Of a DNA stretch of 33,564 nucleotides, positions 1 to 18,871 are shown one piece after another. Source of the stretch: a bacterium (lineage in GTDB: Bacteria; B130-G9); the NCBI GenBank assembly GCA_035527515.1, contig DATLAJ010000066.1, positions 1 to 33,564 on the forward strand, read 5' to 3'. The notes under the pieces are model-generated. The model was given only the letters and a program-made list of their open reading frames with translations, was not told the origin of the DNA and did not search any database. Both the position numbers and the translations under genes were made by a program. The stretch's first letter is position 1; every line of letters starts with the position of its first letter.

Positions 1-1280
1 CCTCCAGTTCACCGCCGATGACCAACTGCACGATCGGCGGCAACACGGCGAACTACTACGGCGGGGGCATCTTCTGCTCCTCCTCCAGTTCTCCGCCGAT
101 GACCAACTGCACGATCAGCAGCAACACGGCGAACTACCACGGCGGGGGCATCTACTGCTATGGCGTCTCCAGTTCACCGCCGATGACCAACTGCACGATC
201 AGCGGCAACACGGCCAAATACGGCGGCGGGGGCATCTACTGCGGCTCCTTCAGTTCTCCGACGATGACCGACTGCACGATCAGCGGTAACACGGCGCATG
301 AAGGGGGCGGGATCTACTGCGGCTCCATCAGTTCTCGGACGATGACCAACTGCATAATCAACGGTAACACCGCGACCGATAAGGGCGGCGGCATCGCTTG
401 CTACAACTCATCGCTGACGTTAACGAATTGCACAATTGCGGACAACAAGGCGGATTATGACGAGGATGGCACTGGCGACGGCGGCGGCATCTGTTGCGAG
501 ACGAACGGCTCATTAACGCTGACGAACTGCATCCTTTGGGGCGACACCGCGGGCGGCGCGCCGAATGAGATCAGCGAAGTCGATGCCGGCGCGGTAACCG
601 TCAGCTACTCTGATGTAGATCAGGATGGATATGGCCACTCCGACTCGTGCGATCCCGACTCAGACAGCAATATAAGGTGTGACCCGGAGTTCGTGCCGAC
701 TGCGGACCCGCCATACACATACTACCTGGCGCACACAGGGCCGCAGGCGGGCAACAGCCCCTGCGTGGACGCGGGCTTAGGCGAACTGAGCGACTACGAC
801 CTGGGAGCTGGAATCACCACGTGCACGGACGGCCATGAGGATGGTAATGACGACGGTAACGGGAGCACCGGGCCGATCGACATGGGCTACCACTATGAGG
901 GCGAATACACCGGTAGCGGAAACACCTACATCGAGCTGGTGTCCTTCACTGCGCGGCCGGTTGGCTCTAGCATAGTGCTCACCTGGGAAACCGGCGCCGA
1001 GATCGACAACGCTGGGTTCGTAATCTATCGGGCGATTGCGGGCACGCTCGATTATCAGCAGATAAGCGACCTGATCGCAGCTGAGGGCAGCCCAAGCCTT
1101 GGCGCCTCATACAGCTTCACCGACGGCAACGTCGAGCGGGGCGTTTCATACAACTACTGGCTGATTGACATCGAGACGAGCGGCAAGTGGACATCACACG
1201 GGCCAGTGTCGGTCAAATTGCCAGTGAGCCTCAAATTGATCGAACTGCCAACTGCCAACCGCTCGATAGGAGGTAGATAA
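1..1280 (+). CDS. Secreted parallel beta-helix repeat protein, 5'-truncated by the window edge
   Basis: The frame is open to the first base, so the true start lies upstream. The visible part, about 425 residues, begins with at least five near-identical units of about 27 residues built on 'MTNCTISGNTA...GGGIYC', a pattern typical of right-handed parallel beta-helix or polymorphic-outer-membrane-type repeats. More divergent coils follow. Next comes a segment ending in 'DMGYHYEG', a usual end of such helices. The C-terminal region of about 110 residues contains 'LVSFTARPVGSSIVLTWETG' and 'DNAGFVIYRA', which resembles the fibronectin-like tail often attached to exported surface proteins. No enzyme motif is visible, and adhesion, surface-layer or polysaccharide-binding roles are all possible. 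The signal peptide, if any, is outside the window. The C-terminal codons carry the ribosome binding site of the following 39-codon ORF. Confidence 0.85.
   Translation, partial: SSSPPMTNCTIGGNTANYYGGGIFCSSSSSPPMTNCTISSNTANYHGGGIYCYGVSSSPPMTNCTISGNTAKYGGGGIYCGSFSSPTMTDCTISGNTAHEGGGIYCGSISSRTMTNCIINGNTATDKGGGIACYNSSLTLTNCTIADNKADYDEDGTGDGGGICCETNGSLTLTNCILWGDTAGGAPNEISEVDAGAVTVSYSDVDQDGYGHSDSCDPDSDSNIRCDPEFVPTADPPYTYYLAHTGPQAGNSPCVDAGLGELSDYDLGAGITTCTDGHEDGNDDGNGSTGPIDMGYHYEGEYTGSGNTYIELVSFTARPVGSSIVLTWETGAEIDNAGFVIYRAIAGTLDYQQISDLIAAEGSPSLGASYSFTDGNVERGVSYNYWLIDIETSGKWTSHGPVSVKLPVSLKLIELPTANRSIGGR
3..400 (+). repeat. Tandem coding repeats of 78-84 bp in the beta-helix gene
   Basis: The core 'atgaccaactgcacgatc' or a close variant recurs at about 18, 99, 183, 264 and 342, giving periods of 81, 84, 81 and 78 bp, all multiples of three. 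DNA identity between units is high, including synonymous positions, which suggests recent expansion by unequal recombination or slippage rather than old protein-level repetition. Confidence 0.85.
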
Positions 1281-1282
1281 TA

Positions 1283-1402
1283 ATGAAGACGAATAACGTT
1301 TACGAGGCGCCGAGAGTTCAGACATTTGATAACGAGGCGCTGACTGCGGCGCTTGGCCCGAGCTTATCGTACACGGGCTTTGGCGGCTCGCTGAAATGCT
1401 GA
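1283..1402 (+). CDS. 39-residue peptide, RiPP-precursor-like
   Basis: This is a short ORF starting 2 nt after the stop of the beta-helix gene. An AGGAGG Shine-Dalgarno lies at 1268-1273, 9 nt before the ATG, which is strong support for translation and probably coupling to the upstream gene. The peptide has an N-terminal part with 'NVYEAPRVQTF' (Tyr7, Pro10, Val12), acidic residues at 16 and 18, then a Gly/Ser-rich end 'LGPSLSYTGFGG' and a final Cys39. The YxxPx(V/L) spacing resembles leader motifs recognised by RiPP recognition elements, for example in lasso peptide leaders. The C-terminal part lacks the acidic ring residue a lasso peptide needs. No maturation enzyme is adjacent inside the window. 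The RiPP assignment is an inference; it could also be a short anchor or regulatory peptide. Confidence 0.5.
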   Translation: MKTNNVYEAPRVQTFDNEALTAALGPSLSYTGFGGSLKC

Positions 1403-1474
1403 TATTTCGAGCTGATAGCTGACAGGGTCTCAGGCAAGCCGAATGCCCGGCCACGATATGTCAGGCAGGATACT

Positions 1475-1668
1475 TCAATACTGCTGGAATAGCTGGCCCC
1501 ACTTGGTCTTGAGGGCCTCATCGACGCGCTTCTTGCCGATGAATGGGTACCAGTACCAGTCGTGGTAGATGATTGAGGCGGCGTATGACCAGGGGGCGAG
1601 GAAGGTTCGGAGCAGGAACTTCTCCGCGAAGTGCAGTGGGCCCCAGTATAGTGCCTTTTGGCCACGGC
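1475..1668 (-). pseudogene. 3' fragment of a DUF362-type gene
   Basis: On the minus strand this encodes about 64 residues, 'GRGQKALYWGPLHF' through 'KKRVDEALKTKWG' to a TGA at 1475-1477. It corresponds to the C-terminal end of the intact DUF362 protein at 3347-4432. It has no start or upstream coding region of its own: homology to the intact copy stops abruptly at about 1668, and beyond that lies the 3' end of the AbiEii-like gene. The last few residues differ from the intact copy (LFQQY against LFLSY). It is read as the remnant of a duplicated or interrupted DUF362 gene. Confidence 0.85.
1497..1668. repeat. 172-bp direct repeat, copy 1 (left flank of the AbiE-like module)
   Basis: By eye this copy differs from 3369-3540 at six positions (1514, 1520, 1544, 1613, 1637 and 1664), or about 97% identity, with no gaps and a constant offset of 1872. 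Both copies are in the same orientation. Similarity ends sharply at 1668/3540 on one side and thins out before 1497/3369 on the other. Confidence 0.9.
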
Positions 1669-1679
1669 CATCCCAGGCT

Positions 1680-2594
1680 TCACGACCACGGGCCCGGCGC
1701 GCTCCACGTTCTGTCAAATGTGTCACCCGAGGCTAAAGCATTCGAAACCGGGAGAAGGAAGAGAGAGACAAGCTCAATGACATTTGCCAGTTCGTTCGGG
1801 GCATCGACTATGCGGGTTCTACGCAGGAATGCAGACCATTGTGCTTGCTTTGAGCTGTCTTTGGTGAATGCCTCTGTCAGCGCTACTGGCTGAGACGCGA
1901 TATCCGTTTCTCGATGCGCAAAGGTCTGCTTGATGGCCTCCGCCAGCGTTTCTCCGTCGAAGTCGAACTGAGTAGAAAGGAGCCAGATATCAAAGAAATC
2001 CTTCATCCGGCTGTTCACGATACCAAGCCTGACCATCGCCTCGAACTTCTCGGCAATGGCGCTTTCCCGCGTGTAACCATCAAGTCTTGGGGCCGGCATA
2101 CCCAGGATTGTTGGATAATCCACGGTAACGGGCTCGGGGACCACAACGTCTCCAAATGCCACGTCAACCTGCATGAAAATGCGGGCAGCTCCAAGTGTTC
2201 CACGGAAGCGAACCCGGACTCCCTCGTATGCAGCCGTCTCAATTATTCTCTGACCCTCAACACTATCCGCGTCGAACAGAAGACCGTCGGGCTCCACCTC
2301 TTGAACGCAAATGTCCTTTATCACGTTGACAAGATCGTCAACCTCGTTCCTTGTCCTTCCCAGCAGATCGATATCCCTTGTCGGGCGAGAGATCGGCGCT
2401 CCCCAGACTGCAAACATCGTGGCTCCCTTGATAATGAAGCTGGAAGCATACGAAGATTTGCTGAGCCTGTATAAGAACCGCTCCATTGCGAAATACTGTA
2501 GCCATTCGTTAAACGGCCGTCCGGATCTTCTCGACTTGTTGAGAAGTCGCTGCCGAACGGAGGCGGCCACATCCACAACCGGCAGTTTCGTCAA
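1680..2594 (-). CDS. AbiEii/AbiGii-family nucleotidyltransferase toxin
   Basis: This 304-residue protein is of the AbiEii toxin type, the nucleotidyltransferase partner of type IV toxin-antitoxin and abortive-infection systems. 'KGATMFAVW' at about 56-64 followed by 'RPTRDIDLLG' at 70-79 supplies the GG/GS-like turn and the Asp74-x-Asp76 metal motif. 'AEKFEAMV' (Lys183) and 'NSRMKDFFDIW' (194-204) match the later Lys and R-x-K-D-x-x-D elements of the family. The ATG overlaps the stop of the upstream antitoxin-like gene by 4 nt (ATGA), typical of translational coupling. The stop lies 11 bp from the boundary of the DUF362 direct repeat, so the last dozen residues may be junction-derived. Family members transfer nucleotides to tRNA or other targets; the target here is unknown. 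Confidence 0.85.
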   Translation of the reverse strand: MTKLPVVDVAASVRQRLLNKSRRSGRPFNEWLQYFAMERFLYRLSKSSYASSFIIKGATMFAVWGAPISRPTRDIDLLGRTRNEVDDLVNVIKDICVQEVEPDGLLFDADSVEGQRIIETAAYEGVRVRFRGTLGAARIFMQVDVAFGDVVVPEPVTVDYPTILGMPAPRLDGYTRESAIAEKFEAMVRLGIVNSRMKDFFDIWLLSTQFDFDGETLAEAIKQTFAHRETDIASQPVALTEAFTKDSSKQAQWSAFLRRTRIVDAPNELANVIELVSLFLLPVSNALASGDTFDRTWSAPGPWS

Positions 2595-3202
2595 AACAGC
2601 GCCTCAAGGTATGGCCGAATCACGTTGCTCACGCGGCAGATGCGGGCGAATTCCATGAGCTTGTCTATGCTGAAATCTCTGCGCGTTCGGCACTCTTTCA
2701 GCGCCTCAATCACGACGTCCAGGCCGATTTTGTTGCGGAACTTGAAGCAGTCGGCGACCGTCTTCTCCAGGCAATAGATGCGGACCGGCACACCGTCTAT
2801 CGGGTGTGTCTCTATCCCAGCAGAAAAGGCTTTCCGACTAAACCAGAACACGCGCACAGGGGGGTGCACAAGTCTTGGTGGCTCCGCTCCTTTGATCCGG
2901 GCTATGTGGACCTCATGGGGGACCTGCGTTGTTACCTCGAAAAAGGTCAGTGCCGAGATCAGGCAGATTACGGCCTCGGGTATTCTGAGCGCCACCGTCA
3001 CAAGGTCGGGGTTCCCGATAGGCGGTATGTTCGGAAGTCGATAGAGCCCGCGAGAGACCTTTTCCACAAGCCCGGCATCCCTCATCGCATAAAGTGTTCT
3101 GGGCTGGATACCTGTTTTGAGAGCATCCTTGGTACGCAGGATGCCACCAGAGTGGCAGAAAATGTCCTTTGCCTTTTGGAAGGCGTTTCTAGTCTTGGTC
3201 AT
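2591..3202 (-). CDS. AbiEi-family antitoxin and transcriptional autorepressor
   Basis: The protein has about 203 residues. An N-terminal winged-helix segment, 'GGILRTKDALKTGIQPRTLY' through 'VEKVSRGLYRLP', matches the AbiEi antitoxin N-terminal domain. A C-terminal half of the AbiEi type follows, with 'YCLEKTVADCFKFRNKIGLDVVIEAL'-like sequence. In characterised AbiE systems this protein represses its own operon and neutralises AbiEii without direct contact. I chose the ATG at 3202; the frame also opens at a TTG at 3217, but that has no visible ribosome binding site. A perfect 8-bp inverted repeat at 3233-3250 sits just upstream, as expected for an autoregulated operon. The gene overlaps the toxin gene by 4 nt. 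Confidence 0.82.
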   Translation of the reverse strand: MTKTRNAFQKAKDIFCHSGGILRTKDALKTGIQPRTLYAMRDAGLVEKVSRGLYRLPNIPPIGNPDLVTVALRIPEAVICLISALTFFEVTTQVPHEVHIARIKGAEPPRLVHPPVRVFWFSRKAFSAGIETHPIDGVPVRIYCLEKTVADCFKFRNKIGLDVVIEALKECRTRRDFSIDKLMEFARICRVSNVIRPYLEALF

Positions 3203-3232
3203 CTCTAGCCTGTCCAAAGCATAAAATTACCT

Positions 3233-3250
3233 ATACTTATTCATAAGTAT
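3233..3250. promoter_or_regulatory. Inverted repeat, candidate AbiEi operator
   Basis: ATACTTAT-TC-ATAAGTAT is a perfect 8-bp inverted repeat with a 2-nt spacer, 30-50 nt upstream of the antitoxin start in an AT-rich tract. A related half-site, 'attcttat', follows at 3255-3262. Known AbiEi proteins bind inverted repeats in their own promoter; the assignment here rests on position and symmetry. Confidence 0.6.
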
Positions 3251-3346
3251 CGGTATTCTTATGCAAAAGACTTCGAGAGTCAACCCACGATCCAAGGAAC
3301 AGCTATGCCGTCCTAGATGCGCCGAAAACGCGAATCTCAAGCACAC

Positions 3347-4432
3347 TCAATAGCTCAGGAAGAGCCTCCCCCACTTGGTCTTGAGCGCCTCTTCGACGCG
3401 CTTCTTGCCGATGAAGGGGTACCAGTACCAGTCGTGGTAGATGATTGAGGCGGCGTATGACCAGGGGGCGAGGAAGGTTCGGAGGAGGAACTTCTCCGCG
3501 AAGTGCAGCGGGCCCCAGTATAGTGCCTTTTGGCCGCGGCTGGCGAAGGTGTTGGCTTTCTTCTGGAAGTGCCAATTGACCTCGGAGACGTCCTCACCGA
3601 CTATCTCGATTTCGTTGAAATCACCGCAGCCGAGGCCTTTCTCGTGCGCTATCCGGATGAACCTGATCTCAAGCGGGTCAAATCCCATCATGTGGGCGGA
3701 TACCGCGTCGATGGCAACCAGATCGGCGCTTGCGAGGATGTAGTCCTTGACGTGTGGGACCATGCATCTGGGCCCGGGGCCGTCCCCGGCGAAGGTGCCA
3801 TCCATCACGGCGAAGACGCCCGGGTGTATCTCCTTTTGAATGGTCAAGAGGTCAACAAGCGTCTCGTGAATCACGGAGTGTGTCCAGTGACGCTTCTCGT
3901 GTAATAGGCCGCCGAATGCGTTCTTCATTGCGCCCGTCATCGTCGTGAAGATGTGGGTCTTGATCGTGGGGAGCTGGATGATGTTGCTGCCGATGAGGCG
4001 CTTGGGTATCTGGATGCCGTTCTTGAAGATGTCAAACAGCGCGAGAATCTCGCCCTTGGGGTGGTAGGTTACCCACTCTTCGTCTTTCTCGTAAAGATGG
4101 ATGTTGCGGATGCCGTATTTCTCAAGGACTGGCTTGTGCTTGTTGGCGACCTCCCCTTTCTTGGTGGAGACAACGACGGTCCGATTGTGGGCGCCGTATA
4201 GCGAGTCGGCGGAATAGCCGTCCGCAAGCATTGTCTTAATGACGCCCTCGAGCTGCCAGGGCGTGGTTGAGCAGGCAGGATAGAAGACCTGCCAGGACAC
4301 GTTGATCTTGAGGGCGGTCTCCTTATCCTTCGGCAGATAGCTCTGGTAATTGGCCATCCGCATGAGCTTTGCGTAGTCGTCCAGAACCGTTTCTGGTTGA
4401 GTTTTCAAGACAGCGACGACTGGTTTAGCCAT
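3347..4432 (-). CDS. DUF362 domain-containing protein
   Basis: The protein has about 361 residues and a DUF362-like order: 'ALKINVSW' near the N terminus, 'LPTIKTHIFTTMTGAMKNAFGG' in the middle, 'VMDGTF' and 'ADLVAIDAVSAHMMG' further on, then an aromatic-rich C-terminal tail ('YHDWYWYPF'). No ferredoxin-like CxxCxxC cluster is present, unlike some DUF362 proteins. The biochemical function of this family is not established. I chose the ATG at 4432, which overlaps the leuD stop by 8 nt and is preceded by AAGGGAAC; the frame extends upstream to 4480 inside leuD, which is less likely. It is co-directional with leuC and leuD. The last 172 bp of coding sequence are duplicated at 1497-1668, beyond the toxin-antitoxin pair. 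Confidence 0.82.
   Translation of the reverse strand: MAKPVVAVLKTQPETVLDDYAKLMRMANYQSYLPKDKETALKINVSWQVFYPACSTTPWQLEGVIKTMLADGYSADSLYGAHNRTVVVSTKKGEVANKHKPVLEKYGIRNIHLYEKDEEWVTYHPKGEILALFDIFKNGIQIPKRLIGSNIIQLPTIKTHIFTTMTGAMKNAFGGLLHEKRHWTHSVIHETLVDLLTIQKEIHPGVFAVMDGTFAGDGPGPRCMVPHVKDYILASADLVAIDAVSAHMMGFDPLEIRFIRIAHEKGLGCGDFNEIEIVGEDVSEVNWHFQKKANTFASRGQKALYWGPLHFAEKFLLRTFLAPWSYAASIIYHDWYWYPFIGKKRVEEALKTKWGRLFLSY
3369..3540. repeat. 172-bp direct repeat, copy 2 (right flank of the AbiE-like module)
   Basis: This copy lies inside the intact DUF362 gene and encodes its C-terminal residues. Together with 1497-1668 it brackets about 1.7 kb holding the toxin-antitoxin pair. Confidence 0.9.
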
Positions 4433-5021
4433 ATTCTTGTTCCCTTTCACAGTTTCCACCCCCGATGTTTGCGAACTCAAACAATCCCCCTGCCTCGATA
4501 ATGGACAGGAGCACGGGGGGCATCGGCGCGCATTTGATCGTTTTCCTTCTCCCTCCTGGAAGGGTTATCTCACTGGTTTGGAGGGTTACCGACAGCTCGG
4601 CCCCGTCCTCGAGTCCCTCCAGCAGATGCCTCGCGCCGGCTTCTTCAAACGAGATGATCGCCATGCCGGAGTTTACTGCATTTCTAAAATATATCGGCGC
4701 AAACGACTGGGCGACAATCGCGTCTATCCCGAGGGTTCGGAGGCAATCTACCGCCTGCTGTCGGGACGAGCCAGCCCCGAAGTTGCGGCCTACAATAAGT
4801 ATCTTGTATTTTGACGCGATATCGGGGAAATGCTCCCATCCCTTGAGATTACCGAACGTGTATTGGCCCATTTTTGAGACATCTGTAACGTGTAAGTGGG
4901 CGTTGTGAAATATCATATCTGTGTCGATATTGTCGATCAGCGAGCCCTTCTCGTCACGTATCAGACACGCAGGCCCGGTAATCGGGCTAGTCTTGGGGGC
5001 TTTTGAATCTTGCACAGTCAT
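4425..5021 (-). CDS. leuD: Isopropylmalate dehydratase-type small subunit (LeuD family)
   Basis: This 198-residue protein is the swivelling small subunit of the aconitase superfamily, acting with the neighbouring large subunit. 'NIDTDMIFHN' is the family's DTD motif, but the usual 'IIPA' continuation is replaced by 'IFHN'. 'VGRNFGAGSSRQQA' is the conserved substrate-binding loop, with Ala where most LeuD proteins have Cys. 'FAPIYFRNAVNSGMAII' is also typical. I chose the ATG at 5021; an upstream in-frame start at 5132 would overlap leuC by 50 nt. The gene lies directly behind leuC and overlaps the DUF362 gene. Because leuA and leuB are not nearby and the DTD segment is atypical, the substrate could be a relative of isopropylmalate such as homoaconitate or another 2-alkylmalate. 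Confidence 0.85.
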   Translation of the reverse strand: MTVQDSKAPKTSPITGPACLIRDEKGSLIDNIDTDMIFHNAHLHVTDVSKMGQYTFGNLKGWEHFPDIASKYKILIVGRNFGAGSSRQQAVDCLRTLGIDAIVAQSFAPIYFRNAVNSGMAIISFEEAGARHLLEGLEDGAELSVTLQTSEITLPGGRRKTIKCAPMPPVLLSIIEAGGLFEFANIGGGNCEREQEYG

Positions 5022-5082
5022 TTCACATCCAGTGGTTCGGTCGTTTGACAGCAGCCTCGGCAAGCCTGACCCACATAGTAAC

Positions 5083-6327
5083 TCATTCTGGAACTCGTAT
5101 CTCACCGTAAATCGCCGAATAGGCCGCGACAACTGGGCTGGCTAGATAAGTCTCGCCCTCGCCCTGCTTGCCCAGGAAGTTGCGGTTACCGGTGCTTATT
5201 TGCACCTCGCCCCTACCGGTCATGCCGGCCTGGCCAGCCGCACAGCCGGCGCAGCCAGGGTTGAGTATTATGGCTCCGGCGTCGTATAGTTTTGAGAGTA
5301 TGCCGTCCTTCAATAGGCGGCCATAGATCGCCCTTGTCGTGGGCGCTATTCTCAGCATGAGATCTCTCTTGACCTTCCGACCCTCCAGGATGCTCGCCGC
5401 AATGCTGATGTCCTCGTATCGGCCATTGGTGCAAGAGCCGATCAAGACCGAGTCAATCCGCGTTCCGGCAACTTCGGACACATCCACCACCGAGCAAGGG
5501 TTGCCCGGAAGGGCTATCTTGGGCCTAAGCTCCGAGACATCGATCTCAAGCTCCCGCGCATAAACTGCCCCATCGCCGGGCGAGGCGATCAGCCCTTGGC
5601 GATCGGCCTTGTCAATTCCTAGTTCGTCCAACACTTCGTCATTGGGCGCGATCAGCCCCGCAACGCCGCCCGCCTCAGTAATGAGGCTTGAGAGCGTAAT
5701 ACGGCCCGAAAGGCCGAGCGCATCGACCGCATTTCCGCCGAACTCTATGGCCATACCGAGCGCCCCTGAGGGCCCAATGGTTCCCAAGAGATGAAGCGCG
5801 AGGTCCTTGGCGGTTACCGGGAACCCGAAACCGCCGGACATCATGACGCGCAGCGTCTCGGGCACCTTGAACCAGACCTTTCGCGTTTTGAAAGCAAACG
5901 CCGAGTCCCGGTCGCCCATCCCAAGGCCTAGCGCGCCAACAGCGCCGAGGAGGTTCAGATGGCTATCGGTTCCTGTGACCGTCGAGCCAGGCAGGCAGTG
6001 CCCCTCGTCGATGAGCACGTGCGAACCAATGCCACCGTTGACGTCGTAAACACGTATCCCGTGCTTTTTGGCGAATATGCGAATGGTCTGCTGGTTGTTA
6101 GCGTACCCGATCGTGTTGGCAGGCGCCTGACAGTCGAATGTAAATAGCGTTCCGGACGGGTCCAGGACAGGATTCTCCGGATACTCACGCTCAAGGTGCG
6201 CCACGACGTTTGCGCCGCCGAAATCGCGCGCCGTAACAAGGTCGAGCGAGAGCCAGACGACATCGCCCGGCTTGGCCTCAGCTAGCGTGTGCGCCGAGAC
6301 TATTCTCTCGATGAGTGTCTTAGCCAA
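5083..6327 (-). CDS. leuC: Isopropylmalate dehydratase-type large subunit (LeuC/homoaconitase family)
   Basis: This 414-residue protein is of the shorter LeuC class found in archaea and many bacteria. It opens with 'KTLIERIVSAHT', has 'TVTGTDSHLNLLGAVGALGLG' mid-protein, and carries the three 4Fe-4S ligands Cys299 ('IGSCTNGR'), Cys359 and Cys362 ('NPGCAGCAAG'). 'STGNRNFLGKQG' near residues 378-389 is the usual final active-site loop. The start is TTG at 6327, with GAGG at about 6336-6340 upstream. The enzyme isomerises a 2-hydroxy acid by dehydration and rehydration together with the adjacent LeuD-type subunit. Substrate choice between isopropylmalate, homoaconitate and related acids cannot be fixed from sequence. 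Confidence 0.9.
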   Translation of the reverse strand: MAKTLIERIVSAHTLAEAKPGDVVWLSLDLVTARDFGGANVVAHLEREYPENPVLDPSGTLFTFDCQAPANTIGYANNQQTIRIFAKKHGIRVYDVNGGIGSHVLIDEGHCLPGSTVTGTDSHLNLLGAVGALGLGMGDRDSAFAFKTRKVWFKVPETLRVMMSGGFGFPVTAKDLALHLLGTIGPSGALGMAIEFGGNAVDALGLSGRITLSSLITEAGGVAGLIAPNDEVLDELGIDKADRQGLIASPGDGAVYARELEIDVSELRPKIALPGNPCSVVDVSEVAGTRIDSVLIGSCTNGRYEDISIAASILEGRKVKRDLMLRIAPTTRAIYGRLLKDGILSKLYDAGAIILNPGCAGCAAGQAGMTGRGEVQISTGNRNFLGKQGEGETYLASPVVAAYSAIYGEIRVPE

Positions 6328-6479
6328 AGTTACTGAGCCTCAGTCTTGTCGTCATTTGGACACACCGGCAGTCTTCAAAATGACATCTGCGTGAAAAACT
6401 GGCCCGGCGAACTGTCCATTCCCCAAATAAGGCATGGCCAAATCCCAACATGAACCAGAATCTACACTATTAGGCCATG

Positions 6480-7409
6480 TCAAACCTGGCCCTTGAACCA
6501 ATCGAGCGTCCGCCTCAGGCCCTCTTCGAGGCCGACTTTCGGCTCCCAGGCAAGCACCTCCAGGGCCTTGCTGATGTCAGGCCGGCGACACTTCGGGTCA
6601 TCGACAGGCAGCTGCCTGTAAGCGATCCCCGCCTCGTTACTCGTCAGCTGGTTGATCTTCTTGGCAAAATCGAGAATCGACATCTCGTCTGGGTTACCGA
6701 TGTTCGTCGGGTCTGTTTCGCTCGACGTCGCGAGCCGAAACAGGCCGTCCACGAGGTCGGAGACATAGCAGAACGAGCGAGTCTGCGACCCGTCGCCATA
6801 CACTGTGAGTGGTTCATTCGCAAGCGCCTGACAGATGAAGTTAGGGACAACGCGCCCGTCCCTGAGCCGCATTCTGGGCCCGAACGTGTTGAATATCCTC
6901 GCTATCCTGGTCTTGACTGCGTGGTATCTATGGTAGGCCATAGTCAGGGCCTCGGCAAAGCGTTTGGCCTCGTCATAGACGCCTCGCGGCCCAATAGGAT
7001 TGACGTTTCCCCAATAGCTTTCCTTCTGCGGGTGGTGCTCTGGGTCCCCATAAACCTCCGAGGTCGAGGCAAGGATAAGCGTGGCGTTTTTGGCCTTAGC
7101 AAGCCCCAGGGCGTTCAATGTCCCGAGCGCTCCCACCTTCATCGTCTGGATCGGCAGCTCCAGGTAGTCCACGGGACTGGCGGGGCTGGCCAGATGAAAC
7201 ACGTAATCCAGCGGCCCATTGACGAAGAGGTAATTGGTCACGTTGTATTTCAGAAACGTGAACCGCTCGTTCTTGATATGCGCAATGTTATCTGTTGTCC
7301 CAGTTATGAGGTTGTCGATACAGATAACCTCATGCCCTGCATCAAGCAAGAAATCACACAAATGCGAGCCGATAAAGCCCGCACCGCCAGTGACCAAAGA
7401 CCTAGGCAC
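6480..7409 (-). CDS. UDP-glucuronate decarboxylase (UDP-xylose synthase), extended SDR
   Basis: This 309-residue extended short-chain dehydrogenase has an NAD-binding '[11 protein letters not shown]' at 6-16, '[11 protein letters not shown]' at 72-82 (a UDP-xylose synthase hallmark), '[10 protein letters not shown]' around 114-123, and the catalytic pair Tyr145 and Lys149 in 'YDEAKR'. '[16 protein letters not shown]' and '[13 protein letters not shown]' also match the family. It probably converts UDP-glucuronate to UDP-xylose in the cytoplasm. It starts with GTG, overlaps the end of the UDP-glucose dehydrogenase gene by 8 nt and has GGAGGTGG upstream, so the two are co-translated and form consecutive steps. 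A dTDP-glucose dehydratase or UDP-glucuronate epimerase activity is less likely, given the SPASP motif. Confidence 0.9.
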
Positions 7410-8718
7410 TCACACCACCTCCATAGGGCTGAACGCCCATCCCGTAGTACTCAAAGCCGAGCGCGTGCGTTCTCTTGGCGTCGTAGATGTTCCGGCCGTC
7501 GAACAAGATTGGCTGCCGTATCAGACCCTTGACCTTCTCGAAGTTCAACAGCTTGAACTCGTTCCATTCGGTAACAAGGATCATGGCGTCGGCGCCCTCG
7601 GTCGCCTCGTAGGCATTCTGGCAGTACGTAATCTCGGGGAAGATCTTCTTGACGTTGTTCATCGCCTCGGGATCGTAGGCCCGGATGGTCGCCTTGCTGT
7701 CAAGCAGACCCTTGACCAGCTCCAGCGACTTAGCCTCACGAATGTCATCGGTGTTGGGCTTGAAGGCAAGCCCCAATATCGCGAAGGTCTTGCCCTCTAG
7801 CGACGAAAACCGCTTCTTGATCTTGGCCAGAAGCCTCGTGCTCCTTTGGTCGTTTATGTGGATTATGGCGTCTATGAGCGAGGCGTCCGCTCCATATTGC
7901 CGTGTGGTGTGAGCGAGGGAGCTGCTGTCCTTGGGGAAGCAGGAGCCGCCGTAGCCCAGGCCCGGCTGAAGGAAGAGGCTGCCGATCCTCTTGTCGGTCC
8001 CCATGCCTCGAACGACGTGGTTGACGTTCGCGCCCGCCAGTTCGCACAGGTCTGCGATGAGATTGACGAAGGATATCTTGCTGGCTAGAAAAGCATTGGA
8101 CGCATACTTGATTATCTCGGCGCTATGCACATCGGTGATTATCATCGGACGCTCAAGGACCGCGTAGAGCTCCAGAAGCTTCATGGCCACGTTCTTGCTC
8201 GGCGCCCCAATCACAATCCTGTCAGGCTCCAGCGTGTCCTTGATGGCCGAGCCTTCACGCAAGAACTCTGGATTCGACACGACGTCGAAGTCCACGTCCT
8301 TGTGCTTGTTCTTCTCAATTATCTCTCTCACAAGATCGCCAGTCCCGACGGGAACGGTGCTCTTGTTGACTATGATCTTGTAGTCATCCATCCACTCGGC
8401 GATGCTCTTGGCGACTGCCCTGACGTAACTTAGGTCAGTCTCGCCACCATCTTTGGGGGGTGTGTTCACGCAAATGAATACGATCTCCGATGCCCTGACG
8501 CCCTCCTTTATGTCTGTCGTGAACCTGAGACGTCCATCCCTGGCATTGTGAGTGACCATTTCCCTGAGTCCAGGCTCATAGATCGGCATAATCCCATTCT
8601 TGAGGCTCTCGATCTTCTCCTTGTCAACATCGACGCAAATGACCTCGTTGCCCAGGTCGGCGAAGACCGCTCCAGTCACAAGGCCGACATATCCTGTTCC
8701 AACTGCACAAATATTCAC
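7402..8718 (-). CDS. ugd: UDP-glucose 6-dehydrogenase
   Basis: This 438-residue protein oxidises UDP-glucose to UDP-glucuronate with two NAD+. The N-terminal Rossmann motif '[10 protein letters not shown]' is at 7-16, 'VNTPP' at 84-88, 'NKSTVPVGT' near 118-126, 'NPEFLREG' at 149-156, and catalytic Cys260 lies in '[10 protein letters not shown]'. Length is normal for the family. The start is GTG at 8718, with GGAGGAG at 8722-8728. The gene feeds the overlapping UDP-xylose synthase gene downstream and belongs to the envelope polysaccharide cluster. Confidence 0.95.
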
Positions 8719-8757
8719 TAACTCCTCCGAAAACCTACATTTCTCGACGCAGCCAGC

Positions 8758-9693
8758 CTACGCAAGCTGCCTTATCTGAACTTCTGACCTAATCATATAA
8801 ACATCCTCGTATTTACAGAGCTCCGTGCCGGGCGTGAGGGCACAGGCTGCGCCAGCTGCCACACCCAGTGTGAGACTCTCGCAGAAAGAAAGACCCGTGT
8901 CCAGCCCCAAAACAAAGCCTGCGACAAGCGAGTCCCCAGCCCCAACCGGGCTAAGTGCCTCGACTTTGGGCGGCTTGGCAAAGAAAGACCCCTCCTCACA
9001 AGTCAGAACCGCGCCATCCGCCCCCATCGAGACCAGCACATTCTCAACCCCCATGGCCCTGAGTTTGGCCGCGGCCGACTGAACCTGCTCAACGCCCTCC
9101 ACATCGAGACCCAGGAGCCGGCGGAGCTCGTGACTGTTCGGCTTAATCATGAAAGGCTTGCCCTCAATGCCTCTTCTTAACAGCTCCCCGTCCGCATCCA
9201 GCACAGCGCGGAGGTTGCTCTCCTTAACGATATTGGTGATCTCGTGGTATGCGTCCGCGGGGACTCCGGGGGGTGCGCTGCCTGAAATGACAAAAAACCC
9301 TGACTTGTACTTATATTCCTTGAGCTTCTCCAAGAGCTGTTCGTATTCCACCTGCGTTGCGCAGGGACCGGCAGCATTGAGAGCCGTGATCGAGTTCGCC
9401 TCGATGTCACTAACAATGACGTTCGTTCTCGTCTCGGAGCCTATGTGAACGAAGTCCGTGGGCACCCCCGCCTGCTTCAACCTGCCCTCGAGCTCCGCCC
9501 CTCCGTATCCGCCCACAAACCCGAACGCCACCGTGCTTCCGCCGAGCTCGATCACGACTCGCGACACGTCGATCCCCTTTCCCGCAGCGAATCGCTGCTC
9601 CGATATGACGCGATTGGCATCATCGAACGCCAGTCTTCTCACGCGGAGCGTCCTGTCAAGCGCCGGGTTCAGTGTCAGCGTGTATATCATCAC
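8758..9693 (-). CDS. 1-phosphofructokinase-family (PfkB) sugar kinase
   Basis: This 311-residue ribokinase-fold kinase opens with 'YTLTLNPALDRTL', the signature start of 1-phosphofructokinase and tagatose-6-phosphate kinase. It has 'GKGIDVSR' at 38-45 (usually GKGINVAR), 'SGSAPPG' at 137-143, 'KPNSHEL' at 184-190 and the anion-hole/catalytic 'GAGDS' at 251-255 with Asp254 as base. It probably phosphorylates a hexose phosphate with ATP. Its GTG start overlaps the stop of the glycosyl-phosphotransferase gene by one nucleotide (TAGTG), so it is part of the polysaccharide operon rather than a PTS fructose operon; no PTS gene is visible. The ATG one codon later is an equally possible start. Confidence 0.88.
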   Translation of the reverse strand: MMIYTLTLNPALDRTLRVRRLAFDDANRVISEQRFAAGKGIDVSRVVIELGGSTVAFGFVGGYGGAELEGRLKQAGVPTDFVHIGSETRTNVIVSDIEANSITALNAAGPCATQVEYEQLLEKLKEYKYKSGFFVISGSAPPGVPADAYHEITNIVKESNLRAVLDADGELLRRGIEGKPFMIKPNSHELRRLLGLDVEGVEQVQSAAAKLRAMGVENVLVSMGADGAVLTCEEGSFFAKPPKVEALSPVGAGDSLVAGFVLGLDTGLSFCESLTLGVAAGAACALTPGTELCKYEDVYMIRSEVQIRQLA

Positions 9694-11096
9694 TAATACG
9701 CGTTCTTCTGGTTCAAAGCTCTCGTGACCGTGCGAAACAGTATTTTGAAGTCCATTGACAAGGACCAGTTCTCAATGTAGTAAAGGTCGCTCTTTAGCCG
9801 CTTGCGCATTGACGTGTCGCCCCGCCAGCCATTGACCTGCGCAAGGCCAGTCATCCCTGACTTCACCTTGTGCCTCAACATGTAGTGCGGTATCGTGTTC
9901 CTGAACTCATCGACGAACGCTGGCTGCTCGGGCCTTGGCCCCACAATGCTCATATCCCCCTTAAACACGTTGCAGAATTGAGGTATCTCATCGATGCTGA
10001 ACCGCCGCAGCACCGCCCCGAACCTCGTTACCCTGGGGTCGTTCTTGGTCGTCCATTCTCGCCCGCTCTGGTCCGCTCCATCAACCATTGTCCTAAACTT
10101 GAACATCGTGAACGACTTGCCATCGAGCCCCATCCGGTCCTGTTTGTAAAAAACGGGGCCCCTCGAGGTGCATTTGATAACTACCGAGACCACAAGTAGA
10201 ACCGGCGAAAGCACCACAAGCGCCGCGGCCGATAACGCCAGGTCCTCCAATCGCTTCAGCCTGTACCTCCACCCTGATAGCGGAGTATAGGTCAGGTTAA
10301 CGATAGGAATCCCGTCGAGTTCCTCCACGTAGGAGCGGAGCATGATGTGCTGCAAGATATCTGGGGCGATCTTTATGTCTATCAACGTGTCCTTAAGGTC
10401 ATGCAAGAGCTTGCTCAACGTCTTGTGCTGAGAAAAGGGAAGCGTGATCAGAACCTGATCCGCGCCCAACTCACTGGCGAGGCGCCTCGTCTCCTGAATG
10501 CGGCCAACTATCTTCACATCGTCCCCGACTCTCTCCCCAATTCTTTTGGAATTGTCAACAGCACCGACTATCTTGAGGCCGACATAAGGGTTCTCCTCTA
10601 TCTTGTGAATTACGTTCTTCGCAAGCTCTCCGCCGCCAACTATCAGCAAGCGCCGCAAGTTGTAGCCCGCCTTTCTCAGGTGAGCAAGAACGCTCCGCAA
10701 ACCCATCCTGAACGAGGCAATGGCCGCGATGTCAAGAAACAAGAAAATCAGCAACACACCTCTTGAGAAGAGGTAATCACGATACATGTAGCCCAAGCCC
10801 ATCAATACGAACACTGACAGAATAACCACATAGATTATCTTGAAGAACTCATCGACCCTGGGCTTGAGCCTTCTCGGCCTATACAGGCCTGCTATGCTGA
10901 ACGTGGCTATCCACAGGGCAGCGATCGCGCTCAGCACGATAGGGCCAGTATAGAGCCTAATGTCCGGTATCCCCGCTGGCGCTTCAAATATCGTATAGAA
11001 GCGAATATAGTACGCCGCGATAAATGCGCCTATGGTCGCCGCAACGTCGCAAATAGCGAAGAGAAAAAGGACTGCTCGGTGATGTTCCTTCAACAT
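9693..11096 (-). CDS. Polyprenyl glycosylphosphotransferase (exopolysaccharide initiating enzyme)
   Basis: The 467-residue protein has four or five N-terminal membrane segments in about the first 130 residues, a cytoplasmic Rossmann-like domain ('LLIVGGGELAK' at 150-160), another membrane segment near 287-308, and the bacterial sugar transferase domain. That domain contains 'FYKQDRMGLDG' (317-327), 'FKFRTMVDGAD' (332-342), 'FSIDEIPQ' (366-373) and 'GDMSIVGPRPEQPAF' (380-394). Such enzymes transfer a sugar-1-phosphate, often glucose, galactose or an amino sugar, from a UDP-sugar to undecaprenyl phosphate to begin repeat-unit assembly. A GGAG-containing ribosome binding site lies 8 nt before the ATG. 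It is the first gene of the operon with the PfkB kinase. Confidence 0.93.
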   Translation of the reverse strand: MLKEHHRAVLFLFAICDVAATIGAFIAAYYIRFYTIFEAPAGIPDIRLYTGPIVLSAIAALWIATFSIAGLYRPRRLKPRVDEFFKIIYVVILSVFVLMGLGYMYRDYLFSRGVLLIFLFLDIAAIASFRMGLRSVLAHLRKAGYNLRRLLIVGGGELAKNVIHKIEENPYVGLKIVGAVDNSKRIGERVGDDVKIVGRIQETRRLASELGADQVLITLPFSQHKTLSKLLHDLKDTLIDIKIAPDILQHIMLRSYVEELDGIPIVNLTYTPLSGWRYRLKRLEDLALSAAALVVLSPVLLVVSVVIKCTSRGPVFYKQDRMGLDGKSFTMFKFRTMVDGADQSGREWTTKNDPRVTRFGAVLRRFSIDEIPQFCNVFKGDMSIVGPRPEQPAFVDEFRNTIPHYMLRHKVKSGMTGLAQVNGWRGDTSMRKRLKSDLYYIENWSLSMDFKILFRTVTRALNQKNAY

Positions 11097-11171
11097 AACA
11101 ATTGCTCACTCCATCCACACGCAAATCGGCACGCAAGTTTCGTTTTGCCCGAATATGCTAAGGGCTGCCCG

Positions 11172-12260
11172 ATGGTATGTCAAACGATCGGTCCAAACTT
11201 GAGAGTCGAGACCGCAAACTCACTGGCTTGCAGTCGAGGGCAATCTCACGAATCCGCGCATGATGCGCGGGTTCCCAGCAAGAGGTCCCATGATGCCTGG
11301 ACAGGCTCTAGCCGCCCGCACATTTCCGTCATAATCCCCACCTTCAACCGCCTGGCCAAGCTCAAGAACGCATTGGCATCTCTGCAAAGTCAGATGTGCC
11401 CGCCCGAATCGTTCGACATAACAGTAGTTGACGATGGTTCAACAGATGAAACGCTAGAATGGCTGAAAGAAGCGGCCGGGGAGCTTGGCAACCTGCGTGT
11501 TCTCAGCCAAAAGCACGCAGGCCCTGCCGCCGCCCGTAACCGCGCGGCCTGCGAGGCTTGCGGAGAGATACTCCTGTTCATGGGCGACGACGTAATCGCG
11601 TCAGAACGCCTCTTGGAGACGCACCTAAAAACATACGAGAGAATGGGGGCCAACATCGCAGTCCAGGGCAGTGTTCGTCTCGCACCGTCCGTTCCAACAA
11701 CGCGCTTTGTTCGCTACCTGGACAAGAGAAGCGCAGCCCAGTTCCAACTGAGCGCCGCCGCGCCCGGCGACGCTCTCCCGTTCTTTGGCCTTTACACGTG
11801 CAACTGCTCCATTCCAAAGAAGTTGGTCGAGGAGTGCGGCGGATTCCCCCAAGATGTGGTCTATTATGATGACACATTTTTGGGCTGGATGCTGGACAGA
11901 AAGGGGATTCCTATCATATATGAGCCACTGGCCGAGGCGCTCCACGATCACGCTCAGACGCTCGAGGAGTTCCTTCTGCGACAGCGGCAGGCCGGCAAGG
12001 ACGCCGCCATTCTCGCAGCGCGGCGCCGCGAGCTCCGCAAACCGCTTCGGGTTGATCAAGCGGTCTTGTTTGAGGGCGCCGTTTGGGAAATAGCCAAGAA
12101 GCTGGTGAAGATGCTTCTCTTCAACCGCTGGACAGTCCGCATACTCATGAAGATGTCAGAATCCCGTATCCTGCCATTCGCAATCTCCTGCATCATATTC
12201 TCCGGACTGATCGGCTATGAGCACAAGATGGCGGCACGGGGACAGAAATCGCGAGCGTGA
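11172..12260 (+). CDS. Family 2 glycosyltransferase
   Basis: From the ATG at 11172 the protein has about 362 residues. A GT-A domain begins at 'ISVIIPTFNRLAKL' and continues with 'TVVDDGSTDETLEWL', 'AGPAAARNRAA' and a DxD-like 'FMGDDVI'. A probable catalytic region, 'YYDDTFLGWML', lies further on. The C-terminal stretch, 'LPFAISCIIFSGLIGYE', is hydrophobic and may associate with the membrane. The frame opens further upstream at 11079, overlapping the divergent polyprenyl transferase gene; that extension has no family similarity, so the later start is preferred without certainty. It probably adds a sugar to the lipid-linked oligosaccharide of the neighbouring cluster. Donor and acceptor cannot be predicted. 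Confidence 0.87.
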   Translation: MVCQTIGPNLRVETANSLACSRGQSHESAHDARVPSKRSHDAWTGSSRPHISVIIPTFNRLAKLKNALASLQSQMCPPESFDITVVDDGSTDETLEWLKEAAGELGNLRVLSQKHAGPAAARNRAACEACGEILLFMGDDVIASERLLETHLKTYERMGANIAVQGSVRLAPSVPTTRFVRYLDKRSAAQFQLSAAAPGDALPFFGLYTCNCSIPKKLVEECGGFPQDVVYYDDTFLGWMLDRKGIPIIYEPLAEALHDHAQTLEEFLLRQRQAGKDAAILAARRRELRKPLRVDQAVLFEGAVWEIAKKLVKMLLFNRWTVRILMKMSESRILPFAISCIIFSGLIGYEHKMAARGQKSRA

Positions 12261-12363
12261 GTTCCAGCGTCCAGAGCCCAGGGAAGTCCACCAAATTTCT
12301 TTTCAGCCGATGATGCAGCGACCCTTTGCATACAACGCGCGCTCCCGCGGGCGCTCCAAATCG

Positions 12364-12588
12364 CTAGAGACAGGTGATCGGCCGGGACCTATCGGCCATC
12401 AGTCGTTGGTGCTGGACTTGAAAGCTGGAGCCTTCCACTTCGGACCTCGTCAACACTAGATGCTCCGCCTTGCTTGGCCGCCTCTTAGGCGGCAGCAGTC
12501 GTGAGGCCGTTATCGTCAACAGAAATGAAAGCAAGAACATCACTACCACAAGGAATAACACAACCCAAAACGCTCTCCACTTTCTCAT
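12364..12588 (-). CDS. Small single-pass membrane protein of unknown function
   Basis: This 74-residue ORF has a strong ribosome binding site (AGGGAAGG ending a few nt before the ATG). 'MRKWRAFWVVLFLVVVMFLL' starts the protein: positively charged residues, then a hydrophobic helix to about residue 27. A polar, basic tail follows. It lies 98 nt downstream of the large polytopic membrane protein on the same strand and converges with the glycosyltransferase gene. No family is recognised. Confidence 0.5.
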   Translation of the reverse strand: MRKWRAFWVVLFLVVVMFLLSFLLTITASRLLPPKRRPSKAEHLVLTRSEVEGSSFQVQHQRLMADRSRPITCL

Positions 12589-12686
12589 TGGCCTTCCCTA
12601 AGATTCGCTGCTGACATGAATATCGAGATCAAGTGTAGGACAAGAAACCCGCCTCGGTCAAATCACCAGACAGCTGCGGTTCACTA

Positions 12687-14822
12687 TCAGGGCAGCGTGA
12701 CGCAGCGGTCAATCTCGTGCATCCCCAGGATCAGTCGCAGTTGGGTTGAGCTTGGAGGAGATGGCCGCGGGAGCGTTGCAATGGCCGTCGACTTAGCGTG
12801 AATTAGACCTGCGGTCTGAACAAAGGTTGCCCTCCGAATCGGCAGGCTGGCGCCGTCGGCAAGAACCTTTATGTTGACCTGCCCCAGGTTCTGCGCCAGC
12901 AGCCAGGGCCGCTGCTGATTCAGACGAACGGTCGCCACGGCGCCTTGCATCCGAGCTGACAGCTGAAGCGTAGTGGGACGACCGTTTTCTGTAAACTCCA
13001 GCTGAACCGTTGCCTGGGATGATGCTCTCTCGAGCTCGAGATCGAGCTTGTCAATTAGCATCGAATCGATCTCGGGCTTGAGTCGCAGTTCGCTCGCACC
13101 CGGACTTTCAGCGACAGCCCGGGCGTGTATCACGTCGGAGGACAGTCGGTCGTAGGACCTCTGCCGCTTGAGAACGCGGTCAGCCAGAATAGGGTCTGGC
13201 ACAGCCCTTTGACCGTCGAATCGAAGTGCTACGACTGTCTTGTCTGGCCCGATCGCTTGGTGTTGAAAGCTCCTCATCCAGTCCTCAAAAGCAAGTGCCT
13301 GCACGCTCTTGCCATACTCGGCTCGGACGGGAATATTGATCTGCATCGCTGGAGAGAAGGGGTCGTCAATCGACATGCTATCCGGCAAAACGATTAGCAT
13401 CAACACATTGTCCGGAATGGTTGGCTGCGCCGCGATGACTGCCTTTGGGATGCGCTTTACGTTCTCAGATTCGGTCAGAAACATTCCGAACATCTTCAAG
13501 AAGCCAGCGATATAGAAGGCGATGATCAGCGCGAACACCGCGGCAGATAGAAACCTAAGCGGGACCATAGATAGTCTAGGAACTAAGCTCTTTGTTATCG
13601 CACATATTGCTCCTATTGCGACCACGGCAACTGCCGCAGCGTAGAACCTAAAATGGTATTTCAAGTTCTCCCCGAAGAAGAGCTCTGCCCAGCCCATGTT
13701 CAGAAGCTCAAAGACCCAATAGCCAATCGCAATCACTGTCAACCATTCCAGCAGGCCAGCTAGTGGCCGCCGCCTCTTAGGCTCGAGGATACCGCCTAGA
13801 GACAAGGAGAGATGACCAAGCAGGCCGGCCATCCCAAATGAGGCAAAGTAAACACGTCCAGGCTGAACGTAAGGCTGAGCGTAGTTGAGGGCGGGTGTGA
13901 TTGCTACCCACAGCAGTAGAAACAAGACGAATCGCCAATTTGCCTTGCAGGTCAAACAAAGCAGCAAGATGGCCGCGAAGCAAAGCGCAGGCGACAGTTG
14001 TAGTGGCCGGATGATCTCATAGATAATTGGTATCACTTTCTTTGCTGCCATCGCCGCAGTCAAGCCCTTGGCGGCGGTTAGGTATGTCCCCGCCGCCGCA
14101 CCCACCGTCATAAACTGATAAAACCTCAACCCCAAATACGTGGCAGAAATTATCCAAAGTGGTAGATGCGCTCTGATGAGGCGTCTCTTGAGCGCACCGT
14201 CCTCCCCGCCAATCCCCCACAGCAGCTCGTAGGCAATCAGGATGGGGATGACCAGGATGGTGTCTGGATAAGTCAGCAGCCCGGCTATATATGCGACAGA
14301 TGCAAAGAGGCTCTTGAGCCAGGACGCCTTTTTGCGGAAACTTGGTCCGGCAAGCCAAATAGCCAACATTGAGAAGAAGACCGAATACAGAGTCTGTGCC
14401 GCCATCTGAAAGACCGGCCCAACGTGGCTTGGCATAATGGTGAAGAGCACTGCGCCAACGGCGCCAGTAAGGAAGCTCTGGGACAAGGCTTCGAGGATCA
14501 GGAATGCTAGAACGCAGGTGGCAGCGTACATCGCAAACCTTATCGCCCGAGGTATCAAGGGATTGGTTCCGAACAATCGATACTGGCCGACTAACAATGC
14601 CTGCAGCATGGGCCTGTAGAACCCGTCTATTTGTGGCTTGATAATAGCACCAAGCATTGAAACGCCCCAGTCTTGTGGCGTTATCCTGTTCAGAGATTCG
14701 CCTATGTAGTAAGCGCCGACCCCAGGGCCGGTTAGCAGCAGCGCGAGCAGAACCAATGCAACAATGAACCAGCGCCTCAGTTTGAGATTCTGGGACAGTC
14801 TGTTATCTGGAAAGAGCTGCAT
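12687..14822 (-). CDS. Large polytopic membrane protein, GT-C glycosyltransferase-like, unassigned
   Basis: This 711-residue protein has about a dozen hydrophobic segments between residues 18 and about 450, then a soluble C-terminal domain of about 250 residues rich in beta-strand-like sequence. An early periplasmic loop has 'DGFYRPMLQALL', resembling loops in polytopic lipid-linked sugar transferases, where an acidic residue acts in catalysis. Later segments include 'TPALNYAQPYVQPGRVYF'. This organisation (GT-C-like membrane half, extracytoplasmic soluble half) suggests transfer of a lipid-linked sugar onto an exported acceptor, but no definite family signature is visible. The ATG is preceded by GGAGGGCGG. 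It is co-directional with the SAM hydroxide adenosyltransferase gene, 88 nt upstream. Confidence 0.75.
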   Translation of the reverse strand: MQLFPDNRLSQNLKLRRWFIVALVLLALLLTGPGVGAYYIGESLNRITPQDWGVSMLGAIIKPQIDGFYRPMLQALLVGQYRLFGTNPLIPRAIRFAMYAATCVLAFLILEALSQSFLTGAVGAVLFTIMPSHVGPVFQMAAQTLYSVFFSMLAIWLAGPSFRKKASWLKSLFASVAYIAGLLTYPDTILVIPILIAYELLWGIGGEDGALKRRLIRAHLPLWIISATYLGLRFYQFMTVGAAAGTYLTAAKGLTAAMAAKKVIPIIYEIIRPLQLSPALCFAAILLLCLTCKANWRFVLFLLLWVAITPALNYAQPYVQPGRVYFASFGMAGLLGHLSLSLGGILEPKRRRPLAGLLEWLTVIAIGYWVFELLNMGWAELFFGENLKYHFRFYAAAVAVVAIGAICAITKSLVPRLSMVPLRFLSAAVFALIIAFYIAGFLKMFGMFLTESENVKRIPKAVIAAQPTIPDNVLMLIVLPDSMSIDDPFSPAMQINIPVRAEYGKSVQALAFEDWMRSFQHQAIGPDKTVVALRFDGQRAVPDPILADRVLKRQRSYDRLSSDVIHARAVAESPGASELRLKPEIDSMLIDKLDLELERASSQATVQLEFTENGRPTTLQLSARMQGAVATVRLNQQRPWLLAQNLGQVNIKVLADGASLPIRRATFVQTAGLIHAKSTAIATLPRPSPPSSTQLRLILGMHEIDRCVTLP

Positions 14823-18300: not shown

Positions 18301-18571
18301 CTATCAGCCCCTTCAAGCATGTTTTGCGGCCCTATTCCCCGTGGATTAGCTCCGAACTCCAGCAGTTAGCCAGCGACTCAACTGCCTTGGTCCCAAGCGC
18401 CCAAAACCCTATCACCAACCTCATCCGGCTGCAATACCGATGCCGCCTCAAATTATTTGGGTCTGCCCTTTCAGGAGTTTCCCCAAGACCTGGCTTGGGT
18501 AAGTTGTGTTATGGGCTGTGCAGTGGCGATTTGGGCGTTGAGGCAGTGGAATTGGCCAGCTCGGCTGATGT

Positions 18572-18840
18572 GGCCCTAAAAGGGCCTGACGTGAGTAGCC
18601 CCGTGTGCAACGCGGGGTCATGGGCGTGCCCGAATTCGTCTTGGCGACCCTGAAGGGGTCGAACAAATTCAGAGATTAACGGTACCGTTCGACCCCTTCA
18701 GGGTCGCTTTTCAGGAGGTTTGGGACAACCTGTCCGCAGGTTTCACCTGCGGCTACTCACGTGTTCCCCCTACGGGGAAAGGGTCCACAGCCAGGGGAAG
18801 CTGGCCGATGCCGATAACCCATCTGTTCCCGCTTTCGGGA
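18572..18840. repeat. Cluster of palindromic (REP-like) elements
   Basis: Successive inverted repeats are: GGCCCT-aaa-AGGGCC (18572-18586); CCCCG...CGGGG (18599-18617); a 21-bp perfect pair (18644-18707); CCGCAGGT-ttc-ACCTGCGG (18734-18752); TTCCCC-ctac-GGGGAA (18764-18779); and TCCCG-cttt-CGGGA (18827-18840). In addition, acgtgagtagcc at 18589-18600 is the exact reverse complement of ggctactcacgt at 18751-18762, so the cluster is itself nested. The arrangement resembles composite REP/BIME-type intergenic elements. No transposase is present. Confidence 0.75.
18644..18707. repeat. 21-bp perfect inverted repeat (long hairpin)
   Basis: The arms at 18644-18664 and 18687-18707 (core 'gaccctgaaggggtcgaac') are perfectly complementary with a 22-nt loop, and each arm contains a smaller internal palindrome (cccTGAAGggg). 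Four T residues follow on the plus strand, so it could also terminate transcription, but it lies upstream of the rnf promoter. Confidence 0.85.
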
Positions 18841-18871
18841 GAAGAATGGGGAAACTCCTCTGTCCTTTGCC

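Follow-up and report, generated by a model that had tools for sequence, protein, structure and literature searches.

An AbiE toxin-antitoxin operon between two copies of a DUF362 gene end: an ancestral neighbour and, most likely, a later recombination scar

The window analysed here, 33,564 bp long and comprising one whole contig of a metagenome-assembled genome (MAG), carries an AbiE toxin-antitoxin pair between two copies of the 3′ end of a DUF362 gene (Table 1). The relatives compared show the link between AbiE and DUF362 to be ancestral, going back as far as the family, so that it predates the tail duplication rather than resulting from it. The second tail copy, found among the family genomes in this one only, is most likely a later scar. 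The most likely reading is one of ordinary DNA recombination and not of a newly found mobile defence cassette.

Table 1. Features at the AbiE-DUF362 locus, in window coordinates.
Feature	Position	Strand	Support or remark
Secreted beta-helix / PMP-like protein, multicopy, 5′ end beyond the contig	3..1280	+	Pfam Beta_helix, Chlam_PMP
39-aa peptide gene, in the flank beyond the distal copy	1283..1402	+	Shine-Dalgarno AGGAGG
Second DUF362 tail, lacking the gene body (distal repeat copy)	1475..1668	-	ends GQLFQQY*
Junction, AbiEii stop to tail copy	1669..1679	.	11 bp
AbiEii nucleotidyltransferase toxin	1680..2594	-	Pfam AbiEii E 2.2e-45; PADLOC E 4.3e-103
AbiEi antitoxin/repressor, likely start ATG 3202	2591..3217	-	Pfam AbiEi_4 E 7.9e-10; PADLOC AbiEi E 5.7e-75
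Perfect palindrome ATACTTAT-TC-ATAAGTAT, putative AbiEi operator	3233..3250	.	just upstream of abiEi
Proximal repeat copy	3347..3540	-	true 3′ end of the DUF362 gene
Complete DUF362 family gene, start probably ATG 4433	3347..4480	-	MAKPVV..GRLFLSY*; Pfam DUF362 E 4.5e-23

On the contig a complete DUF362 gene is followed by the intact AbiEi/AbiEii operon and then by a headless DUF362 tail. The direct repeat formed by the two gene ends spans 194 bp at 93% identity (E 2.4e-78), and a search of the 3.47-Mb genome returned these two copies only. A preliminary description of this DNA had reported a repeat of 172 bp at 97% identity; the repeat is real, and the shorter figure left off the last ~22 bp before the stop codon, where identity falls sharply. 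The alignment bears out the arrangement described there, with the complete DUF362 3′ end on one side of the pair and a headless copy on the far side. The distal copy has no gene body, its reading frame opening only inside AbiEii and in a different frame, and it starts 11 bp past the AbiEii stop codon. As had also been remarked, the module has no recombinase: the gene list and Pfam searches placed abiEi and abiEii, and nothing else, between the repeats.

By its sequence, the module belongs to a known kind, the type IV AbiE toxin-antitoxin operons, and is ordinary and intact. An AbiEi-family wHTH gene lies directly upstream of a DUF1814 nucleotidyltransferase gene, as AbiE type IV systems require, and abiEii starts on a TTG that overlaps the stop codon of abiEi (TTGA). 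In AbiEii, motifs I-IV are intact, with KGA-x15-DID (56-76) and its upstream arginine, AEKFEAMVRLG (181) and KDFFD (198); the published definitions are hG[G/S/A]-x15-DhD, a K..R motif III and +DxxD, and mutagenesis of the Streptococcus agalactiae AbiEii showed that all four motifs are needed for toxicity (PMC3985639). The locus thus shares with the AbiE type IV systems (Dy et al. 2014, PMC3985639) the bicistronic wHTH antitoxin and DUF1814 nucleotidyltransferase, the four toxin motifs, the spacing hGA-x15-DhD and an upstream inverted repeat. The nearest solved structures are those of AbiGi/AbiGii (PDB 9hlo), matched at E 1e-32 by the toxin (AbiGii) and at E 1.1e-8 by the antitoxin (AbiGi); this similarity is moderate only, and PADLOC assigns the pair to AbiE. 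The GC content and base composition of the module are like those of its surroundings.

The core of the palindrome upstream of abiEi recurs at the same position in two relatives; in G003 it is perfect, in G002 one base is mismatched. An operator role can be proposed for it because AbiE systems are known to autoregulate. In S. agalactiae the operator consists of two 11-bp half-repeats 27 bp apart (PMC3985639), whereas the one predicted here is a single short palindrome. By analogy, AbiEi would repress its own promoter through this site and would neutralise AbiEii, a nucleotidyltransferase toxin; we infer both AbiE activity and autoregulation at this locus.

The comparison set within the phylum consisted of four genomes, namely the present one, G001 of the same genus, G002 (JAGHCW01) and G003 (JAFGIT01). 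In both G002 and G003 an orthologous AbiEi lies directly downstream of DUF362, without a tail copy. DUF362 is single-copy in both, its orthologues being 91% (G002) and 87% (G003) identical, and neither has a second DUF362 tail. Two full tandem DUF362 genes, the arrangement that had been named as evidence against an insertion, were found in no family genome. AbiEi is 69-72% identical among the three loci and at most 60% identical to anything else in 193 genomes. Moreover, at third codon positions AbiEi is 45-47% identical, on a par with the 35-48% of neighbouring genes. Because AbiEi sits beside DUF362 in G002 and G003 with divergence like that of neighbouring genes, the link goes back as far as the family itself. 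All three genera have conserved synteny to the right of DUF362 but differ from one another on the left side beyond AbiE, so that AbiE lies at the edge of a conserved block; with the left flank different in all three, loss of a tail copy from G002 and G003 is conceivable in principle. In G001 the region is missing altogether, including DUF362 and the neighbouring LeuCD genes, and this genome was rejected as an empty-site relative on that account.

The toxin has fared differently in the relatives. In G002 AbiEii is a frameshifted remnant, of which residues 1-91 and 254-304 only are left, in different frames, and no AbiEii was found in G003. The search for relatives with an uninterrupted DUF362 gene lacking the pair, which the preliminary description had proposed, gave a divided answer: both genomes have DUF362 without a tail copy, but both hold AbiEi there. 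As a separate observation, AbiEi and the operator palindrome are retained with AbiEii pseudogenised (G002, L019:10163-11200) or absent (G003, L020:12430-13038), an arrangement amounting to an orphan antitoxin or regulator.

Beyond these genomes, DUF362 loci were checked for a repeat of their own tail (87 loci, a few genomes, G002 and G003 among them, having been entered twice). Tail duplication, or cargo between tail copies, was seen in 0 of the 86 testable loci from other genomes, and the suggestion that other cargo might be found between copies of a DUF362 3′ end was therefore not borne out. One apparent second case, L056 (Aminicenantes), was discarded as an assembly artefact; its contig (JAUWYH010000018.1) is a perfect 13.3-kb palindrome in which positions 1-13294 equal their own reverse complement. 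No AbiE was found near DUF362 loci outside the family among those examined.

A closer inspection of the two tails reveals a mosaic. Aligned in codon register, they differ at 6/170 positions before the last 24 bp, all of them third codon positions (five synonymous changes and one E to D). Within the last 24 bp they differ at 8 positions, a step in divergence that is significant by Fisher's test (5/156 vs 8/24, 2.6e-5), although this mosaic evidence amounts to 24 bp within a fast-evolving C-terminus. The distal end, GQLFQQY, is identical to G003 at 22 of 24 positions, and the proximal GRLFLSY resembles the GRLFLEY of G002. Both types of ending match genuine DUF362 C-termini in other phyla. Because of this substitution pattern and the two genuine-looking termini, the distal copy resembles the terminus of another functional allele and not a decaying piece of pseudogene, and the mosaic fits two functional alleles set in tandem. 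The insertion footprint proposed in the preliminary description survives in part, since the mosaic fits incoming DNA that supplied the present 3′ terminus and left the other 3′ end on the far side. However, the pair itself does not appear to have arrived with the tail copy, AbiEi standing beside DUF362 in G002 and G003 where that copy is missing.

With moderate confidence, we attribute the tail copy to one-sided homologous recombination within the DUF362 tail, the other end having been joined illegitimately close behind the AbiEii stop codon. One parental DNA would have contributed AbiE together with the terminus of a closely related DUF362 allele; in the other parent, a chromosome, the DUF362 allele would have ended in GQLFQQY with the peptide/PMP locus immediately behind it. 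If the two crossed over by homology within the DUF362 tail and were fused non-homologously at the opposite end, 11 bp past the AbiEii stop, two DUF362 3′-end alleles would lie in tandem around AbiE, which would account for both the gene order and the mosaic. We infer from which donor, in what order and by what mechanism this came about; no donor or empty-site chromosome was seen among the family genomes compared, of which G001 lacks the region. Homology-facilitated illegitimate recombination, with one homologous anchor and one illegitimate end, leaves displaced downstream genes or orphaned 3′ regions and has been proposed for T6SS and Rhs loci (PMC5361080). The likeness to the present locus lies in the inserted toxin-protector module, anchored by homology at one end only, and in the older 3′ region moved downstream of it. 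There, however, the displaced piece comes from a toxin or immunity gene, whereas here it is the tail of the conserved DUF362 gene and the module had already been at the site ancestrally.

A local origin needs no donor. If the DUF362 tail, perhaps together with AbiE, had been tandemly duplicated within the lineage and the second unit deleted down to its tail, later gene conversion could have homogenised the inner 170 bp and spared the last 24 bp, which then diverged; direct repeats ~1.9 kb apart are prone to conversion, and a conversion tract that stopped 24 bp short of the end would produce such a step. We nevertheless think this rather unlikely, as no AbiEi or spacer sequence is present to the left of 1475, the deletion would have had to stop almost exactly at the DUF362 stop codon, and an unconstrained tail should not differ solely at third codon positions (6/6). 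A second, tandem DUF362 paralogue that lost its body to AbiE and kept only its tail would explain the functional-looking C-terminus and constrained substitution pattern of the distal tail, but DUF362 is single-copy in G002 and G003 and AbiE adjoins that single gene there, so no second gene is needed; such an origin seems very unlikely. The assembly itself might be at fault, the AbiE-DUF362 locus of one strain having been joined to the DUF362 tail and PMP locus of another. The MAG consists of 183 contigs with 3.57% contamination, the distal copy lies ~1.5 kb from the contig end and the two tails resemble two alleles. Against this, the AbiEii end and the tail start have no shared sequence to mislead an assembler, the copies differ and so are not a simple repeat error, and the flank carries PMP and peptide families of this same phylum. 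We consider a chimera unlikely.

In the main reading of the preliminary description, an element carrying defence genes had integrated into the DUF362 3′ end; if it did so site-specifically, the tail copies would be its attL and attR. A direct repeat of a gene 3′ end does flank accessory genes here, and the gene is rebuilt. At 194 bp, the repeat is longer than is usual for an attachment core. Moreover, integration predicts that the tail was duplicated when AbiE arrived, which the repeat-free AbiE loci of G002 and G003 contradict unless both lost the distal tail. Together with the core-gene-like divergence of AbiEi, the lack of a recombinase between the repeats and the lack of any such arrangement or cargo in the 86 testable loci, this argues against a minimal mobile cassette at this site, and we hold integration to be highly improbable. 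A more general mobile-element reading was set aside for want of a recombinase and since, of the AbiEii relatives in viral contigs (up to 54%) and plasmids, none encodes this locus. An inversion was also considered, as rnf lies directly left of the AbiEii remnant in G002 and at 19-22 kb on the other side in the window; it was dropped because rnf lies elsewhere in G003, so that neither an ancestral order nor an inversion scar could be derived. Nor did the tail copy stand up as a terminator or RNA element: the downstream stretches fold no better than shuffled sequences, and the tail ends have no terminator-like site.

Three features of the window outside the AbiE locus were also recorded. The short peptide gene beyond the distal copy belongs to a family of ~39 aa (consensus YEAPkVxTLdxxxLxxxLGPSLSCTGFGGSxxC) with 29 matches in the phylum's four genomes and none in 56 other genomes searched, and without a Pfam or NCBIfam match. 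Paralogues include G000:C22:10114, C14:15633, C14:13536, C57:75825 and C132:14892, with others in G001, G002 and G003. They adjoin beta-helix/PMP-like secreted proteins, and AGGAGG-like ribosome sites precede nearly all copies inspected. The peptide looks like a leader-core (RiPP-like) precursor; no obvious maturase was seen beside the copies looked at. The PMP/beta-helix secreted proteins themselves form a large paralogous family in the phylum with a shared C-terminal domain (24 matches in the own genome, 45 in G003). Lastly, the interval ~18469-18861, between a sulfatase gene and rnfD, is a dispersed intergenic repeat that is matched ~40 times within its own genome (at best 92% over 390 bp) and ~39 times in its congener G001, with almost no match in G002 and G003; a MITE- or REP-like element may have expanded within the genus.

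On paper, a crossover between the two DUF362 tails would remove the AbiE pair and leave an intact DUF362 gene, a point of the preliminary description that follows directly from the sequence; the predicted product ends in GQLFQQY. It is conceivable, if distinctly doubtful, that AbiE pairs beside a conserved gene are spread and lost by plain homologous recombination through the 3′ end of their anchor, without a recombinase, the tail repeats acting as a reusable insertion and excision site that always leaves the host gene intact. The locus illustrates how a suggestive insertion footprint can mislead, as relatives place the toxin-antitoxin pair beside the gene before its tail was duplicated. It also traces, on a small scale, how an AbiE locus has fared in a phylum about which little is known: one relative has a broken toxin gene and another none, antitoxin and operator persist in both, and the one intact AbiE pair sits between repeats that could remove it in a single step.
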